Of a stretch of DNA of 64,000 bases, positions 5,481-50,440 are shown piece by piece. The stretch lies in assembly GCA_963969495.1 (NCBI GenBank), contig OZ018324.1, positions 43,770,609 to 43,834,608 on the forward strand. Direction: 5' to 3'. Source of the stretch: Ceratothoa steindachneri. Taxonomy: Eukaryota; Arthropoda; Malacostraca; Isopoda; Cymothoidae. A model generated the notes under the pieces. The model worked only from the letters and a program-made list of their open reading frames with translations, had not been told where the DNA came from and searched no databases. Numbering within the stretch: position 1 is the stretch's first letter; each line of letters starts with the position of its first letter. Position numbers and translations under genes: made by a program.

Positions 5481-7360
<1,880 letters not shown>

Positions 7361-7499: not shown

Positions 7500-8200
7500 T
7501 TATTTTTCACCAAATTAGTGATGAATATTTGGATTTAAGAGAACTGCCATTGATCTCCAGGTCGCCAAAAACAAAGTATTAAGGAAATAATAGCTATTAC
7601 TATTGTATTATTGTTTCTATAAATTTTAAATATAGTATATCATGTTTATACCATAACTGAAATAAAATATAACCCTTGAAAATTTTTTTTATAATTTTAT
7701 TATTTGCTTGAAAATAATGTTATTTACCATAAATGGGCTAATTTACAAATTCAATGTCTTAGCCACAAAAGCAAAGTTGTGGATTAAAAGTGACTTTTTT
7801 TATTTAATACAGCCAGAAACAATTCGGAAATAACACTGTTTAGAGGCAATCATCATCAAATATATGTATTCAAACATTCTGATGAGCAAAATATCTAAAT
7901 CTTGCACTCAGAAGCAGGACAGTTAAGCCAGTATCCGATTACTCTCTGAGCTTGGTATCTTATGTAAGTATAAATGAAGTTCAATTGCCGGAGACTGGAA
8001 TATACCGGGTGTCCCATTGAAAACTTTTAGGGAAAATTCTTGTTGAATTATGCTCATCATGTTGAAATTGTGCCCTGCACAAAATTGTAGTGTTCCATGT
8101 ACAGGGTTCCCCAAATTTTAATTTGCTTTGCAATCCTCTTCATAATCCTTCCTACTGTATATTAAAAAGAAAAAAAAGATTTGATTTTTCCTACTACGGT
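7500..8200. other. No gene seen; one terminal-repeat-like motif
   Basis: AT-rich. 8004-8030 has ACCGGGTGTCCCATTG, which resembles the ends of the TA-flanked MITEs described at 18.5 and 28.3 kb. I found no matching inverted end. Confidence 0.3.
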
Positions 8201-8201
8201 A

Positions 8202-8430
<229 letters not shown>

Positions 8431-9890
8431 ATTATACTGTAGTAGAAAGCCATGTTTGATACCAAATTCGGTAAGGTCAACAGCGACGTCCGAATGGTTG
8501 AGTTTACGTTACAGTCTTTTAACCTTTTAGACAACTCTCTTCACAGTAAGTCTAGGGTGAGAAAAAATTATGAGAAATGGCATTTCTTTATTAACCAAGA
8601 TGTCGTTGAATCTTTTCGTTTGTCATCTTCGTGACAGTCAGTAAATCTGAAATTTAAAAGAAAAGTTAAAGACAAAGAACAGATCAATTACCCGCCCATT
8701 CTCCCTTAACCTTCTTAAGAGTACGCAACGAAGGTAACGAAAGGGAGCCGAATACTTATTTTGTAGTCCTCTGCATCTTCACTGGAAAAGGCTAAAGTAG
8801 GTGCCGGGCATGATGGATCTGGAGGATAATGAGTGAGATGAAGAGAAAGAAGAACGTTTCATGATAGGATAGCTAGGAAGAAGAGGTAGACACAATAAAT
8901 TTGACTTAGTATACCTACAGATTACCTTGGATTCTAAACAATAATGTTGTTATTGTCGTTAACCCTCTCCCACGTACAGTGTATATAAAGTTGCGTGTCT
9001 AAGTTAAAAGTTTACTTCGCGTGAGAATGACGCATTTCTAGCTCTCTAGTTATTTTTTCTATTCCTATTCTGGTTATTCACGAGTATATACTTTTCTCTC
9101 GCAATGCTTTGATTTTCTAAATAATCGTAGGAGATGTAGAATAATCTTCATCCTCCATAGGTGTAAATTTCCTCTTCTTCTTCTTCTCTTCCCTCTATCC
9201 TTGGTAAACTTGGGAATACGTGATGTGTTCTCCTCTCTGCTTGTTTAGCAATCTGGTAGGTGACATCTAGGCCTATTTCATATTGCGTCTTTACTCTGAC
9301 ATTCCTAGCTCTTCTTGCATTTAGTCTGTTAAGTTATTTTATCTTGGCTTCATAATGATGGGCAGTTTGTATTCTTCTTTCGCTTTTTCAAGTATTTGTA
9401 TTTATATACATAACTTACTTCTGCCCTCTTTATACTCTTCAAGATAATGTACATCGCTATGATTTGATAAGTTTTTGCTGATTAGATTAGGTGCTATAAA
9501 ATCTTCTTCTTGTTTTTCAGGCTAAGAAGTTTAACCCTGTATATTAATACTAGTCCGCGTTTTCCCCGCTTCAATAAAGTGCTTTTTGTAACGTGATGTA
9601 ATATCAGGTAATCCAAGCACATTACGATCTGTCATACCTGAAACGCGATCCTTCTACATATATCTGACTTGAGTCTCCTAAGTAAAAGATGTATTTAGGT
9701 TTTGTCAAACGGGGAACAATTAGGAAGCAGGGAGTATGAACTTTCGTTTCACGATCAGGTTCTCATCACCTAGATGTGTGTATTTGTTTGGGGTAGTAGG
9801 GGCTTGGTAGAGTTATAGTCTTTAGAAGATATGTGTAAAGGAATTATAACATTATGCCACACAGAGGACCAAGCGGACATATATGTTATA
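8431..9890. other. No gene seen
   Basis: AT-rich, short frames only. 9175-9205 is a CTT-rich tract. Confidence 0.5.
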
Positions 9891-14562: not shown

Positions 14563-15165
14563 TCACTATTGCTTAATTAAGTTTTACACTCGTTTCCTGG
14601 TTTACTCGCATTTATTGATCGTTTGAATTAACGTTACCCCTTGTATTCAACTGTTTTTTATCTATATTTTTCACTATCATATATTTGTATTTTAAACTTC
14701 TATTAAGCTGTTTGCTTTGCTTTTTTTGCCTTTCGGATTCCTGGCTTTTTTATTTTACTTACCTTTCATTTTCCATTGTTCGCCCTGCCCTTGCAACTTT
14801 GTCGGGCATTACTTTAAAAACAAATTTCTTGTATTCATATTGAGTTTAATTAATGTTTATTATTCATATTTTTTATTGCCGTGACTATTGTTTAATTAAA
14901 TTTCAAATTTTTAATTTTGCTTTCTTGGTCAAACTCGTATTTATCGATCGCTTTATCCCTTGCATTCTACTGTTTTAACATATTTTTCAATCTCATATAT
15001 CGATAAATTAACTACTTGCTTTTCATTCTGGTTTAATTTCTCTTTCCTCTCTTGTTAGGTTTAACATATTTTTCTTATCATAACTAATATTAAATTGTTT
15101 GTGCTATTTTTGCAATCTTGTCATCTAATTCTTAAGAATTTCTTGTATTCGTATTAGAGTTCAAT
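14563..15165. repeat. Diverged tandem duplication, about 300-bp unit
   Basis: 14563-14858 and 14885-15165 share a run of features in the same order: TTAATTAA, a TCGCATTTATTGATCG versus TCGTATTTATCGATCG box, CCCTTG.ATTC, a CTCATATAT-type stretch and TTTCTTGTATTC. The match is partial and T-rich. It could be the paired pseudo-LTRs of a Penelope-like element, since a hammerhead-like motif follows at once. Confidence 0.4.
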
Positions 15166-15168
15166 CCG

Positions 15169-15204
15169 CTGAAGGTGGTCATTGTTAATGACCGAAACGT
15201 CCGG
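15169..15204 (+). ncRNA. Degenerate hammerhead-ribozyme-like motif (Penelope type)
   Basis: The sequence runs CTGAAGG, then a perfect 7-bp stem GGTCATT/AATGACC with a GTT loop (15177-15193), then GAAACGTC. This is the CUGANGA / stem II / GAAAC-GUC arrangement seen in the compact hammerheads of Penelope-like elements. The expected A after the G of CUGANGA is G, and one extra T lies before stem II, so it is probably inactive. It is followed by an AATAAA-type signal and an (AT)n array. Confidence 0.4.
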
Positions 15205-15243
15205 AAAATAAATGTTTGGAGCTACCACGTGGGTCTTCATATT

Positions 15244-15248
<5 letters not shown>

Positions 15249-36430: not shown

Positions 36431-36437
36431 TAAATAA

Positions 36438-36556
36438 CACTGGTCTGCGTCAAAAATGTTCGTGAGGTTTTCATAGGTGATTCTTAATGAAATCTGTCTC
36501 CTAAATCCAAATAAAGCATTTATATTGCTTAATCAGGTCTAGTTTTTAAGATACAG
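36438..36556 (+). repeat. Left terminal inverted repeat of the CACTGG transposon
   Basis: Matches the complement of 39088-39216 at about three bases in four by eye, with the best-kept blocks at the tip (CACTGG.CTGCGT) and at 36505-36556. Confidence 0.8.
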
Positions 36557-37080
36557 ACCAAGCTCCCTAAATGGCGTTAGAGAGCTCAGTCTCTAGCTGA
36601 CCGCGAGCGTGAGTGGTTGTGTGTTGCTTGCTCACTCTCCAACTAAGTGTTGGTTTTTTAATCCATGACTTTTCTCATCTATGAACAGTGTTTAAAGTGT
36701 ATTTCTAAAACTTTATTTATCTTTGTGAATTTTTTTGCAGGCAAATACATTAGCAAACTCCTTATATTTCATAAAAATGAATAGAAAGTGTAAAAACAGT
36801 CCGGATAGATTTTGTTTTGTTTGTGAAAAGGTAACTTTTAGTGACCAGCAATGCACTATAACGCCCTTAGTAAAGTTCCTTTACAATGCATATTTTGGAA
36901 TAAAGCTAGGTGATCAAGACAAAAACTTTGCTCCACATATGTGCTGCAAAGCCTGTGTCATAGCCTTAAGACGCTGGAGTGAGGGCAAAACTAACTGTTT
37001 GTCATTTGGTGTAACTATGGTGTGGAGAGAAGGCAAGGACCACATTACAGACTGCTATTTTTGCATGACAAATCTTAAAG

Positions 37081-37341
37081 GTGAGATAATTACTTTAACA
37101 ATATAGTCCTTGACAAATCTAGAAATGTTTATACAAATCTTTTGGTAGCCTATTCAAATTGTAATGTGTATAAAAATAGTGTATTATGCTGGTAGAAAAA
37201 TTGTCGTTAAATTGTATATAAAAATTGATTGTATTTAAAAATTGTAAATTTACCGGGTGTGAAAAATGTGTATAAAAATGTGGAAACGAGGGTCGAGTGA
37301 ATTAAAAGTATGTAAATTAAGTATGCGAAACTTTTTTTCAG
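37081..37341 (+). other. Intron 1-2 of the transposase-like gene
   Basis: The GTGAGA donor follows AAAG and the TTTTTTTCAG acceptor precedes GTGTTAATAAG. The join restores NLKGVNKKNKH in frame (phase 1). Confidence 0.75.
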
Positions 37342-37976
37342 GTGTTAATAAGAAGAACAAACACACTGTAGTCTATCCTAATGTTCCTTCTGCCATTAAA
37401 CCACAACCACATGGTCCAAGAGTTCTAGTTCCTTCTCCACCTAAAAATACTAAGCTACAAGACAATATAGAAGATATAGAAGTGGCTGAGACTGACACTT
37501 CAGTGACATATCAGCCTACGTCTACAATGACTTTGCCAAGACCACTCACTCAAGGTCAATTAAATGACTTGAATAGAGATCTTGGTCTTTCTAAAGAGAA
37601 CGCACAACTTCTTGCATCCCGTCTTAGTGAGAGCAACCTCCTCTCTCAAGAAACTACAAAGTTTTGGTTCAGAAATAGATACGAAGAGTTTTGAAAGTTC
37701 TTTTCAGTTTATTCTTGCAGCTCTTTGGTGTGTTTCAATGATGTAAAAGGTTTAATTGAGGCACTTGGCGTTCCTTACCAACCAAGTGAATGGAGGCTCT
37801 TTATTGATTCTTCTAGCAGAAGTTTGAAGGCAGTACTCTTAAATATTGGAAATAAAATGGCATCTGTACCTATTGGCTATTCAATTCAGTTAATAGAAAG
37901 CTACGAAAATATGAAAGTATTGATTAATACAATCAAGTACTCTAACCAGAACTAGTTAATATGTGGTGATCTCAAG

Positions 37977-38172
37977 GTAAGATATATTTTACTTTATTGA
38001 ACTTGTTAAATATTTCAAGAAATGTTTGTTTCTAAATACCAATGACAGAAGGATATTATACACATATTATTTTCTCCCTACCCCTAATAAACTTAGTGAA
38101 AATTGCCTATGCAAAAAATAGAAGTTCTTAGAAACCATGTACATCAATATGCATCAATATGTTTTATTTCAG
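37977..38172 (+). other. Intron 2-3 of the transposase-like gene
   Basis: The GTAAGA donor follows CTCAAG and the TTTATTTCAG acceptor precedes GTTGTGTGC. The join gives GDLKVVCLLFGMQGG in frame. The intron separates the second candidate catalytic Asp from the zinc Cys pair. Confidence 0.8.
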
Positions 38173-39087
38173 GTTGTGTGCCTTCTTTTTGGGATGCAAG
38201 GAGGCTACACAAAATATCCATGCTTTATGTGGTTATGGGATAGCCGGGCAGATAGTCTTCACTATAAGCAAAAAAACTGGCCATCTTGAGAGGTATTCCA
38301 AATTGGCTGCCACAATGTGGTAGCTCAACCTCTAGTCCCTCCCAAAAATGTTTTACTGCCTCCTCTTCATATAAAGCTTGGCCTGATGAAGAACTTTGTC
38401 AAAGCACTGAATAAAGAAGGCCAAGCTTTTAATTATCTACTGCAAAACTTCCTACAGATCAGTGATGCCAAGCTCCATGCAGGCATATTCGATGGTCCCC
38501 AAATTAGAACTCTGTTAAAGGACAAGCATTTTTACACCAATAAGGGAGCCAGTGAACAAGAAGCATGGCGAGCGTTTAGTGAAGTAATCGACGGTCTTCT
38601 GGGAAATAAAAGAAGCTCAGAATATATCTCACATGTAAATGAGCTTATGAAAAGCTTCGAAGAAATGGGAGCTCGCATGTCGATAAAAATGCATTTTATC
38701 CAGTCACATCTTGACTATTTTCCGGCAAACTGTGGAGATTATAGCGAGGAACAAGAAGAAATATTTCACCAAGACATAAAGACGATGGAAACAAGATATC
38801 AAGGACGCTGGGACATCAAAATGTTAGCTGACTATTGCTGGTGTCTTAAACGCGACGAACCAACATCGCTTCACAAGCGGAAGTCATCAAGGACTTCTTT
38901 TCTTGGAAAATAGTTTCTTTGCACTCCTGGGTAAGCTCATAAGTAGTCTGTAAGTTTAAAATTAATTAATAGAAATTCGAATTGAGTCCGTATTTTTTTT
39001 ATTACAAGTAATTGTAATTTATTAAATAACTTTTATATAAATAAGGGATTTTTTCAAAAATTAACCTTTTCTAAAAACAGTAGTGCG

Positions 39088-39216
39088 CTGTATCTCAAAG
39101 ACCAGACCTGATTGAGCAAAATGAATGTCATTTTTCAATTTAGGAGAACTATTTCGTTAGGAATCACTAAAGAAAACCGCAGGAACAGAAAATCCTTTTT
39201 CAAACGCAGGCCAGTG
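39088..39216 (-). repeat. Right terminal inverted repeat of the CACTGG transposon
   Basis: Complement of the left repeat, with about 9 extra bases near the tip. A second GGCCAGTGTAGTA at 39409-39421 resembles the tip and could be a second old end. Confidence 0.8.
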
Positions 39217-39540
39217 TAATAGATTTAAATGTGTTGAAAACGAATCTGGGAAAAACTAATTTTGATAAACCTAACCTATATCAATTTGCATTTCGCTATT
39301 ATTAAATTGTTGATCGTTTTTCTATATTAAATAAATTAGAGTATGTCTTTTCAATGTTTTCAGCAGGTCTAATTCTATTTAATTCAAATTATAGACTTAG
39401 GTATAATCGGCCAGTGTAGTACTAGGTATTGCAAAACTACCATTGGACTGGTTATTTCTCTTTCAACAAAGGTCAGAAATATATTTTTTATACAGTTATA
39501 CACGTTTGCTCGTATATTATTTTAACATATGAATATGTGA
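39217..39540. other. No gene seen
   Basis: AT-rich spacer between the CACTGG transposon and the mariner pseudogene. Confidence 0.5.
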
Positions 39541-47620: not shown

Positions 47621-50440
47621 TCGACCACAAAATTTTGTCTACAAGCGAGAACAATTCTTACTTTAACTGGGAATATCCTCCAAGAGGTTGCTAATAGGAC
47701 TGCCGGCTATGCAATTATAAGTTCCTTTTATGTAGAAAATTCGAAACTGGTACTCTTGGAGGAGTAAGCTCTATCTTATTAAACGATCATTTTTGGCTCT
47801 TCGAGTTTTGTAAATAAGCTAGAGGACGATGATCCGTCTATATAATAAATTCTTTCCCTATAAAATACCTACCGAACTTTCGAATACTCCATACAATCGA
47901 GAAAGCTTCACGCTCTATTACCGCATAGTTCTTCTCCCGCGTCAGGATTTTCAAGCTCGCCTAAGCAACAGGGTGGCTTTCGCCATCCTCTCCATATTGG
48001 AGGAGTACGCATCTGATGCCGTTATTGCTGGCGTCCAATCGAATGCCAAAAAGCTTATTTGTATTTGGGACTCTTAAAATGGAGGCTGACGCAAGCTTGT
48101 CTTTTAGTTTTGTAAATGGGCGGTATCTTTGGGGTTTCAGGCATGGGTATCTGGGATTTTTTTTGCAGCAGGGAGCAAAGGGAAGCAGCTAGGGAGGCAA
48201 AATTCAGGACGAATCTTCGTTAAAATGACGTTAATCCCATAAGTCAGCGTAACTGATTCTTGCTGCTGGGGAGTGGTATGCTTACGATGGCCCTCATCTT
48301 CTCTTCCTGGGGTGCCATTTGATTTTTCCCGATGTAGAATCCTAAATATTCTATGGTGCCGTACGCAAAATGGCACTGACTGGAGCCTACAGTAGGTCCG
48401 TGCTTACGGAGCCTAATTATGAGGGAATATAGGAAGATCAGTTGTTGATTCCAGATGCGGGTGGCAACATAAATGTTGTCAAAGTAGAATGATACATTAT
48501 GCAACCCATCCAGCAGTATCCGACGTATCATTTGATTATAGTTACTGCAAGAAGTATTTTTTTGCGAAAAGAAGCCTCTGAAACTGCATAAGTCTTTTTT
48601 CAGTGGGGAATTAGGTATATTTCCGGGCGTTTTCCTTAAGGGGAATCTGATAATAGCAGTTACATAGGGCTATTTTGGAAATCAATTTGGCCTCTTCGAA
48701 TAGCTGTATTTTTGCTCTATGAGGGGATTGATTCTGTATCGAAAACGGTCACGGCATTAAGCTTTCAAAAATCTACGTAAAAACGAAAGGACTGTTCAGG
48801 TTTTCGAACTATGACGATGGAGCAACAATAATCAGAGTTGGAGGGTATAATAATCTGCAATTTCAAAAGGTTTCATACCTCTGCGTTGAAAACCTGGCAT
48901 AAATAGATTGGTAGAGGGTAGGGTTTTGAAATTGGTTCTTGCGTTGTTAGCATGATTGTGTGTTCAAAGTGAGTCGAGCTCCCGGCTTTTTCTAAGATCA
49001 CGTCTTGGAATTGGTTTAACAGGTGTAATAATTACATCTTCTGGAAGGGTAATGAGGGGTGAGGATAATCACTATTCTGCTCAACATAAACGGCTTGAAC
49101 TTCGTTAAGGGGTTCGAAGGGGTAAGAGGCTTCCATAACTGCCGCCTTATCAAGGGCGACTATATTATTAATAAAGGCGCGGCAGTGATACCGCTTCAGC
49201 ATGTTCACGTGGAACAGCTTATTTCCGGAGTGGGTTTTATTCAGATAAACCAAGGGGCCACGACTCTCGAAGATCGTTAGGAGCTTATAGGTATCCGTGG
49301 GCAAAAGGAGTAATACTTCATCGCCAGGCCTGAATCGTCTTCCTTTTGACTTGACATCCAAATAGGTACGATATTCTTAAGATTTAGATCAGCGTTTTTA
49401 TAAGCGGTGTCCGCAAATTCTTCTAGGCGATTGCGGAAGTCCAATAAATATAAATAGGAAGAATTTATTTCTTCATCTAGACGGGCGTTTGCGAACAGCT
49501 CATTTAGTATACCCATGGGCCCTCGTACATTTCGACCATAGAGAAGCTCAAATGAGGCAAATCCCAGGGTGCAATGAGGGATTTTCCGGAAGGCCAATGG
49601 AGCAATGGGTAAGTACCGATGCCATTCTCAGGGCTGAACATGGCAGAGCTTCTTTAATACGGTTTTCAGAGTTCCATTTAACTTTTCACAGATCACGTTT
49701 GCAGAGGGGTGAAATGGGCTAGTGAACAGAGATTTAATCCTCAGGAGCTTGCCGACGTACTCCATCAATTTTAGGAAGAATTGTCTTCCTTTGTCGGAAA
49801 AGATCTCATTCGGGTTACCAACGCGAGAGAGAATAGAAATTAGGGCCACAGCAGAGATCACACTATATATGTATTATCTTGAGGCAGACCGCCTCTGGGA
49901 ATCGAGTCGCGAAGTCGACGAAGAAGAGAACGTAGGAGTCTTGTTTGCTGGACGGGAGGTGAATCAGGCCAATCAGGTCAACGGTACTCTGAAAAAGGGC
50001 TCAGAGATTATTAGGGCTTTCTGGAGTGGATCTGGCGGTATAAGTCCTTTTGCCGTTGTCTTCTGGCAAATATCACAAGCCTTGCAAAATTCGGCAATTT
50101 CGTTAGCAGCGCCGGGTTAAAAGAAGTACCGGCATATTCTTTGTGCCGTTTTGTTATGGTTCAAATCATCAGCCAACAGAGCGTCGTGGGCGAGTTTGAG
50201 GACTTGGCGGACGTGAGATCGAAGGATATACATATAAAGTGTGAGTCGCGGGGCTAACCCCAACCGAACAGGCACGGTAAAATAGGCCTTCCTTAATGAG
50301 ATAAGAGACCTCCCTTTTTCCGCGAGCAGTCTTTTTCATGAATCTTAGCTTTTTCCCGAAGGGGTAGGAGAGTTGCGCACCCTTTTTGTGTTTGCGCAAA
50401 TGCATCGCTGTGGAGTGCTTGGAATCACCGGTCATGAGCG
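47620..50440 (-). pseudogene. Ty3/gypsy-class pol with order INT-RT-RNase H (Gmr1-like)
   Basis: All domains are on the minus strand. Integrase zinc finger: LAHDALLADDLNHNKT and FCKACDICQK (50190-50060). Integrase core: TVDLIG (about 49985), IFSDKGRQF (Asp at 49795) and VICEKLNGTLK (Glu at 49687), with exactly 35 residues between D and E. Then FRKIPHCTLGFASFELLYGR (49590) and a C-terminal domain FRPGDEVLLLLPTDTYKLL to NMLKRYH (49330-49180). Reverse transcriptase follows downstream: SFRFYVDF*KLNAVT (48780), SFYFDNIYVAT (48490; Asn replaces the second Asp) and IEYLGFYIGKNQMAPQEEKM (48350). RNase H comes last: RLDASNNGIRCVLLQ (48020), YAVIEREAFSIVW (47920) and TDHRPLAYLQNS (47830). Many frameshifts and stops make it inactive. 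Most gypsy elements have RT-RH-INT; this reversed order is that of the Gmr1-like group. Confidence 0.88.

Follow-up and report, generated by a model that had tools for sequence, protein, structure and literature searches.

An inactive transposon copy with Chapaev3 hallmarks and a three-exon transposase gene in Ceratothoa steindachneri

Structure of the element and its gene

The window analysed here is a stretch of 64,000 nucleotides from the Ceratothoa steindachneri genome (contig OZ018324.1, positions 43,770,609 to 43,834,608), and it contains a mobile element at positions 36438-39216, with imperfect inverted repeats at both borders and a single gene between them. The left terminal inverted repeat lies at 36438-36556 on the plus strand and starts with the tip CACTGGTCTGCG, and the right one lies at 39088-39216 on the minus strand, where its tip reads CACTGGCCTGCG. 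Outside the repeats are the two target-site duplications, TAA without strand assignment, at 36435-36437 (preceded by A) and 39217-39219 (followed by T). The local alignment of the two repeats contains 97 identities over 118 aligned positions plus 12 gap positions, and its score of 128 compares with a maximum of 61 among 200 shuffles of one end. The ungapped core of 100 nt, with arms at 36457-36556 and 39088-39187, is 78% complementary. The 13-bp tip pattern CACTGGNCTGCGT has two matches in the window at up to two mismatches, both exact and both at the ends of the element. We note that this tip pattern alone is no evidence, because 1.33 chance matches are expected in the window at two mismatches; the long arms carry the case. 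These results agree with an earlier, sequence-only reading of this DNA, which had described inverted repeats of about 120 bp with TAA on both sides and one gene between them.

The gene is a single coding unit on the plus strand, with three exons, 559 codons, and a stop codon. Exon 1 (36777-37080) encodes an N-terminal zinc domain, whose predicted model looks like a ZAD, with C13-x2-C16 and C57-x2-C60, and then H89-x3-C93-x2-C96. Exon 2 (37342-37976) encodes a linker, a helical region, and the first two acidic residues, D257 (37806) and D311 (37968), which are D256 and D310 in the numbering of P0002, an intact relative. Exon 3 (38173-38913) contains the C(2)C motif, LH (38365-38370), H(4)H (38692-38709), and E506/E509 (38749/38758). 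In-frame stops interrupt exon 2 at 37692 and 37953 and exon 3 at 38287, and the second Cys of C(2)C is substituted in the window copy.

Copies of the family in the host genome

Using the window element as the query, we searched the host assembly (3.93 Gb, 529 contigs) and scored 40 of 3,586 first-look candidates, which gives a family of at least 40 members. The scored places are ~96% identical; 38 are nearly full length, one lacks the first ~317 bases, and one is split. All 40 loci were read with their flanks (L001 is the window copy), and both ends were located in 38 of them, L037 and L039 having no locatable end. Identical 3-bp flanks are present in 34 of the 38 copies, TTA in 21 and TAA in 13, and all 34 duplications are preceded by A and followed by T. 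The left tip is CACTGGTCTGCG in 30 of 39 copies, including the window copy, and the right tip is CACAGGCCTGCG (CACAGG) in 26 of 39. The remaining tips are mostly single changes, and a few are damaged (L016, L018, L029, and L040 right). Nearly full-length copies with the same ends and 3-bp duplications, which the sequence-only reading had named as support, are found, rather than copies with unrelated flanks. Two details of that reading need amendment: CACTGG stands at both ends in the window copy only, among the 38 copies with located ends, while the right tip of the family is usually CACAGG; and the duplicated 3 bp are not any three bases but TWA between A and T.

Pairwise divergence among 39 aligned copies ranges from 1.4 to 4.3%, with a median of 2.6%, and the most divergent is the window copy (nearest neighbour 3.2%). 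The intron borders GT, AG, GT, and AG are retained in 39, 39, 39, and 38 of these 39 copies, respectively; that is, both splice borders of exon 2 are intact in every copy and the exon 3 acceptor AG in all but one. When the frames were spliced by coordinates, with no start codon required, 8 of the 39 copies had no stop, 26 had one to four stops, and 5 were out of frame. Given these divergences and frame counts, the spread of the family was fairly recent; the window copy itself is dead.

In the empty-site test, flanks joined with one duplication were aligned to all other fetched DNA and to the window, and at least 15 bases were required on each side of the joint. Four alignments cross the joint without the element, each with a single target copy and a clean joint. 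They are L003 against L016 (70% over 396 columns, with 274 and 78 query bases beside the joint, and TTG in the paralogue), L023 against window 14767-15246 (75%, 505 columns), L038 against a different stretch of L016 (75%, 382 columns, left side 31 bases), and L006 against window 48634-48872 (68%, 241 columns, left side only 20 bases). These empty sites are old and paralogous rather than orthologous. As the four sites show, the two ends insert as one unit, and the suspicion that they belong to separate elements was not borne out. Open frames of 299 residues also cross the joint once the flanks of L004 or of L033 are put together; we give these frames little weight, because the RVT_1 match adjoins the joint and does not span it in either case, and in L033 it is below the family cut-off.

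The window segments 14767-15246 and 48634-48872 are insertion-free repeats akin to the flanks of L023 and L006. Six insertions (L004, L006, L024, L028, L029, and L033) sit in coding sequence of other mobile elements; the flanks are reverse-transcriptase-like by Pfam in L004 and L033, and the other four were judged by eye.

A second, intronless family

Searching the host genome with P0002, we scored 78 of 104,719 first-look candidates. Among the long matches, most consist of one continuous frame, hence intronless, with 57-67% protein identity. The intronless copies that were read, L042-L047, are about 2.2 kb long, and four of the six have CAC...GTG tips with A-TAA-T. Near their ends, stretches of 52-55 bp share 73-81% identity with the ends of the window element. 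With a like gene and like ends in a second family, the link between gene and ends recurs. This genome also has at least one further locus, C39:24030537-24032564, where the matches break at the two intron positions of the window gene.

Classification of the element

We conclude with high confidence that the window element is a cut-and-paste DNA transposon of the Chapaev3 group (CMC / Transib-RAG1 clade), present here as an inactive copy, and it is a new three-exon family of this known kind. Passages of PMC4079192 describe Chapaev3 elements as having TWA duplications, always with A before and T after, CAC/GTG termini, and a transposase of ~556 residues that carries the motifs C(2)C, LH, and H(4)H. 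According to these passages, Merrow and Garfield have two exons and most other elements one, the hosts range from Hydra to lampreys, paralogous empty sites exist, and horizontal transfer has occurred repeatedly. Repbase reports of 2007 are cited there for Chapaev3, and one of 2008 is cited in a part of PMC4411706 that groups Chapaev and Chapaev3 together with Transib and RAG1. Excerpts of two further papers group EnSpm, Mirage, Chapaev, and Transib by common motifs (PMC12730594) and list Chapaev3 in a fly (PMC3630058). The element resembles Merrow, Garfield, and Conan in its TWA between A and T, its CAC/GTG termini, its paralogous empty sites, the size, motifs, and probable DDE type of its transposase, and its many copies in an animal. 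It differs from them in its three exons, its ~120-bp ends, its host near cymothoid isopods, and its right tip, mostly CACAGG.

The C(2)C, LH, and H(4)H motifs are invariant in 42 relatives, as are D256 and D310, and E505 and E508 are both nearly invariant. The predicted model of the intact relative has a catalytic core with a RAG1/Transib-like fold, and RAG1 and HzTransib are the only fold matches at E <= 0.001. RAG1 is the enzyme that cuts antibody genes, and the duplication made by Transib and RAG is 5 bp long. The element is unlike them in its 3-bp TWA duplication and in sequence, with 12% and 17% identity to the RAG1 core and HzTransib, respectively. Searches of the PDB by sequence gave only two chance-like matches with the full profile (E 0.098 and 0.9) and no match with the exon-3 piece, and P0002 matched 0 Pfam families at E <= 0.1.

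Several points weigh against the Chapaev3 reading. The placement was made by hallmarks and fold rather than by a tree, and the third catalytic acid is either E505 or E508 (P0002 numbering). Compared with RAG1 over the whole chain, the model has Foldseek TM-scores of only 0.39-0.47, at ~10-11% identity. Matching 3-bp flanks are missing in four of the 38 copies (L005, L016, L021, and L040), two of the four empty sites reach only a short way past the joint on one side (20 and 31 bases), and the exact tip pattern located no ends in two of the six intronless copies.

The sequence-only reading had assigned the element to the CACTA/CMC group, of which the CMC affinity stands, but CACTA is a different CMC branch. 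An element of CACTA/EnSpm proper would also fit tips that start with CACT and a 3-bp duplication, and excerpts of PMC12730594 describe C(2)C and H(3-4)H motifs as common to CMC. However, the common tips are CACTGG and CACAGG instead of CACTA, the TWA flanked by A and T in all 34 copies with a duplication is the signature published for Chapaev3 (passages of PMC4079192), and the Pfam matches of the 42 relatives at E <= 0.1 include no CACTA transposase family. We consider this assignment very improbable. TWA duplications also occur in PIF/Harbinger, but membership in that or another TWA-duplicating group is scarcely credible given the exclusive fold matches to RAG1 and HzTransib, the CAC tips, the Chapaev motifs, and the single gene seen. 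Just as hard to credit is a multi-copy host gene carried by a transposon that another enzyme moved: the broken window gene was indeed not the mover of the window copy, but the product of the family has the predicted fold and the motifs of a transposase, and the second family also carries its gene within CAC...GTG ends, with A-TAA-T, in four of the six copies read.

We therefore believe that the gene encodes a Chapaev3 transposase, the role that the sequence-only reading had thought likely; the motifs, the fold, and the second family with like ends all speak for it. That reading had also called the family unnamed, which no longer holds, since its hallmarks are those given for Chapaev3 in passages of PMC4079192. 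This provides a name and a mechanism for an abundant 'uncharacterized' protein family, whose intact relative P0002 matched no Pfam family, and such predicted genes become recognisable as Chapaev3 transposase.

In the mechanism that we propose, the enzyme would bind the ends of the element and cut them by DDE chemistry, using an RNase H fold and a Cys2-His2 zinc site, and the excised DNA would be joined at a 3-bp stagger in ATWAT. Because its own gene is broken, the window copy would have needed an enzyme from elsewhere and could presumably be moved only by that of another copy.

A related protein named from a mantis shrimp

P0001, a protein named O. oratoria (a stomatopod), matches copies in this genome at up to 96.3% identity over 406 residues and the window copy at 86.4%, in comparisons made at the protein level. 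Its exon 3 part (192 residues) is 98.4% identical to the nearest copy, which falls inside the family's own spread there of 89-98%, with a median of 95%. Another O. oratoria protein, P0047, has at most 76% identity in this genome. The host COX1 was taken from the small contig C529, and its identities come from 120 matches listed of 7,998 scored. The best named among the matches listed are Ichthyoxenos (87%), Cymothoa (87%), Elthusa (85%), and Asotana (80%), all of which we take to be cymothoid isopods; Ligia and Armadillidium are listed at 77% and a Stomatopoda cluster at 78%. The low identity of P0047 and these COX1 matches tell against O. oratoria as the host. Because a transposase inherited by descent should not exceed COX1 in conservation, horizontal transfer is the natural reading, and the P0001 family is a candidate for such transfer between the two crustaceans. 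Contamination or mislabelling of P0001 is the competing explanation, which we consider unlikely although it deserves serious attention. The contig of 623,024 bases on which P0001 lies speaks for it; against it, the P0001 cluster represents 37 member sequences, and passages of PMC4079192 document that Chapaev3 has moved horizontally between distantly related animals. The probable recent spread of the family between these two kinds of host, an isopod-like crustacean and a mantis shrimp, is a testable lead.

The N-terminal domain and ZAD

As a predicted model, the exon 1 domain resembles ZAD (zf-AD, PF07776), which stands at the N-terminus of insect ZAD zinc-finger regulators. The two share the C-x2-C ... 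C-x2-C layout, and the second C-x2-C and its neighbours align in register over 38 columns. In contrast to ZAD, an H-x3-C-x2-C group follows in the element, and the domain is fused to a transposase instead of C2H2 fingers. The sequence similarity is weak: PF07776 matches 12 of 22 domains at E <= 1 (best 1.6e-4), P0002 itself not among them, and 0 of 20 shuffles with fixed Cys. At the sequence level, the search of the PDB with the N-terminal profile speaks against ZAD, giving one FYVE chain (E 0.17) and no ZAD. The ZAD of Grauzone had 3 short matches in the large protein set, and because these are too few for a profile, five ZAD stretches from the PDB were compared in its place. ZADs are known to dimerise. 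In part of PMC4411706, an N-terminal zinc domain common to RAG1 is named 'Chapa'. It is conceivable, though we lean against it, that ZAD is a domesticated part of a transposase and that RAG1 and ZAD regulators have one mobile-element domain in common. An N-terminal domain possibly common to RAG1-like transposases and ZAD transcription factors is a further testable lead.

Other observations

A viral carrier was considered and rejected: viral contigs scanned with A1 yielded 10 pattern matches but no relative, and the viral fold library gave 0 matches at E <= 0.001.

An older, broken Chapaev3-like gene lies in several frames at 5497-7351 of the window, on the minus strand, and shares up to 50% identity with relatives over ~100 residues. 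Terminal ends were sought for this older relative (5.5-7.35 kb) and none were found. Beside it, at 6966-7149 and 8200-8434, long inverted matches overlap in large numbers; they reach 184 nt, are 83-98% complementary, and resemble simple-repeat tracts.
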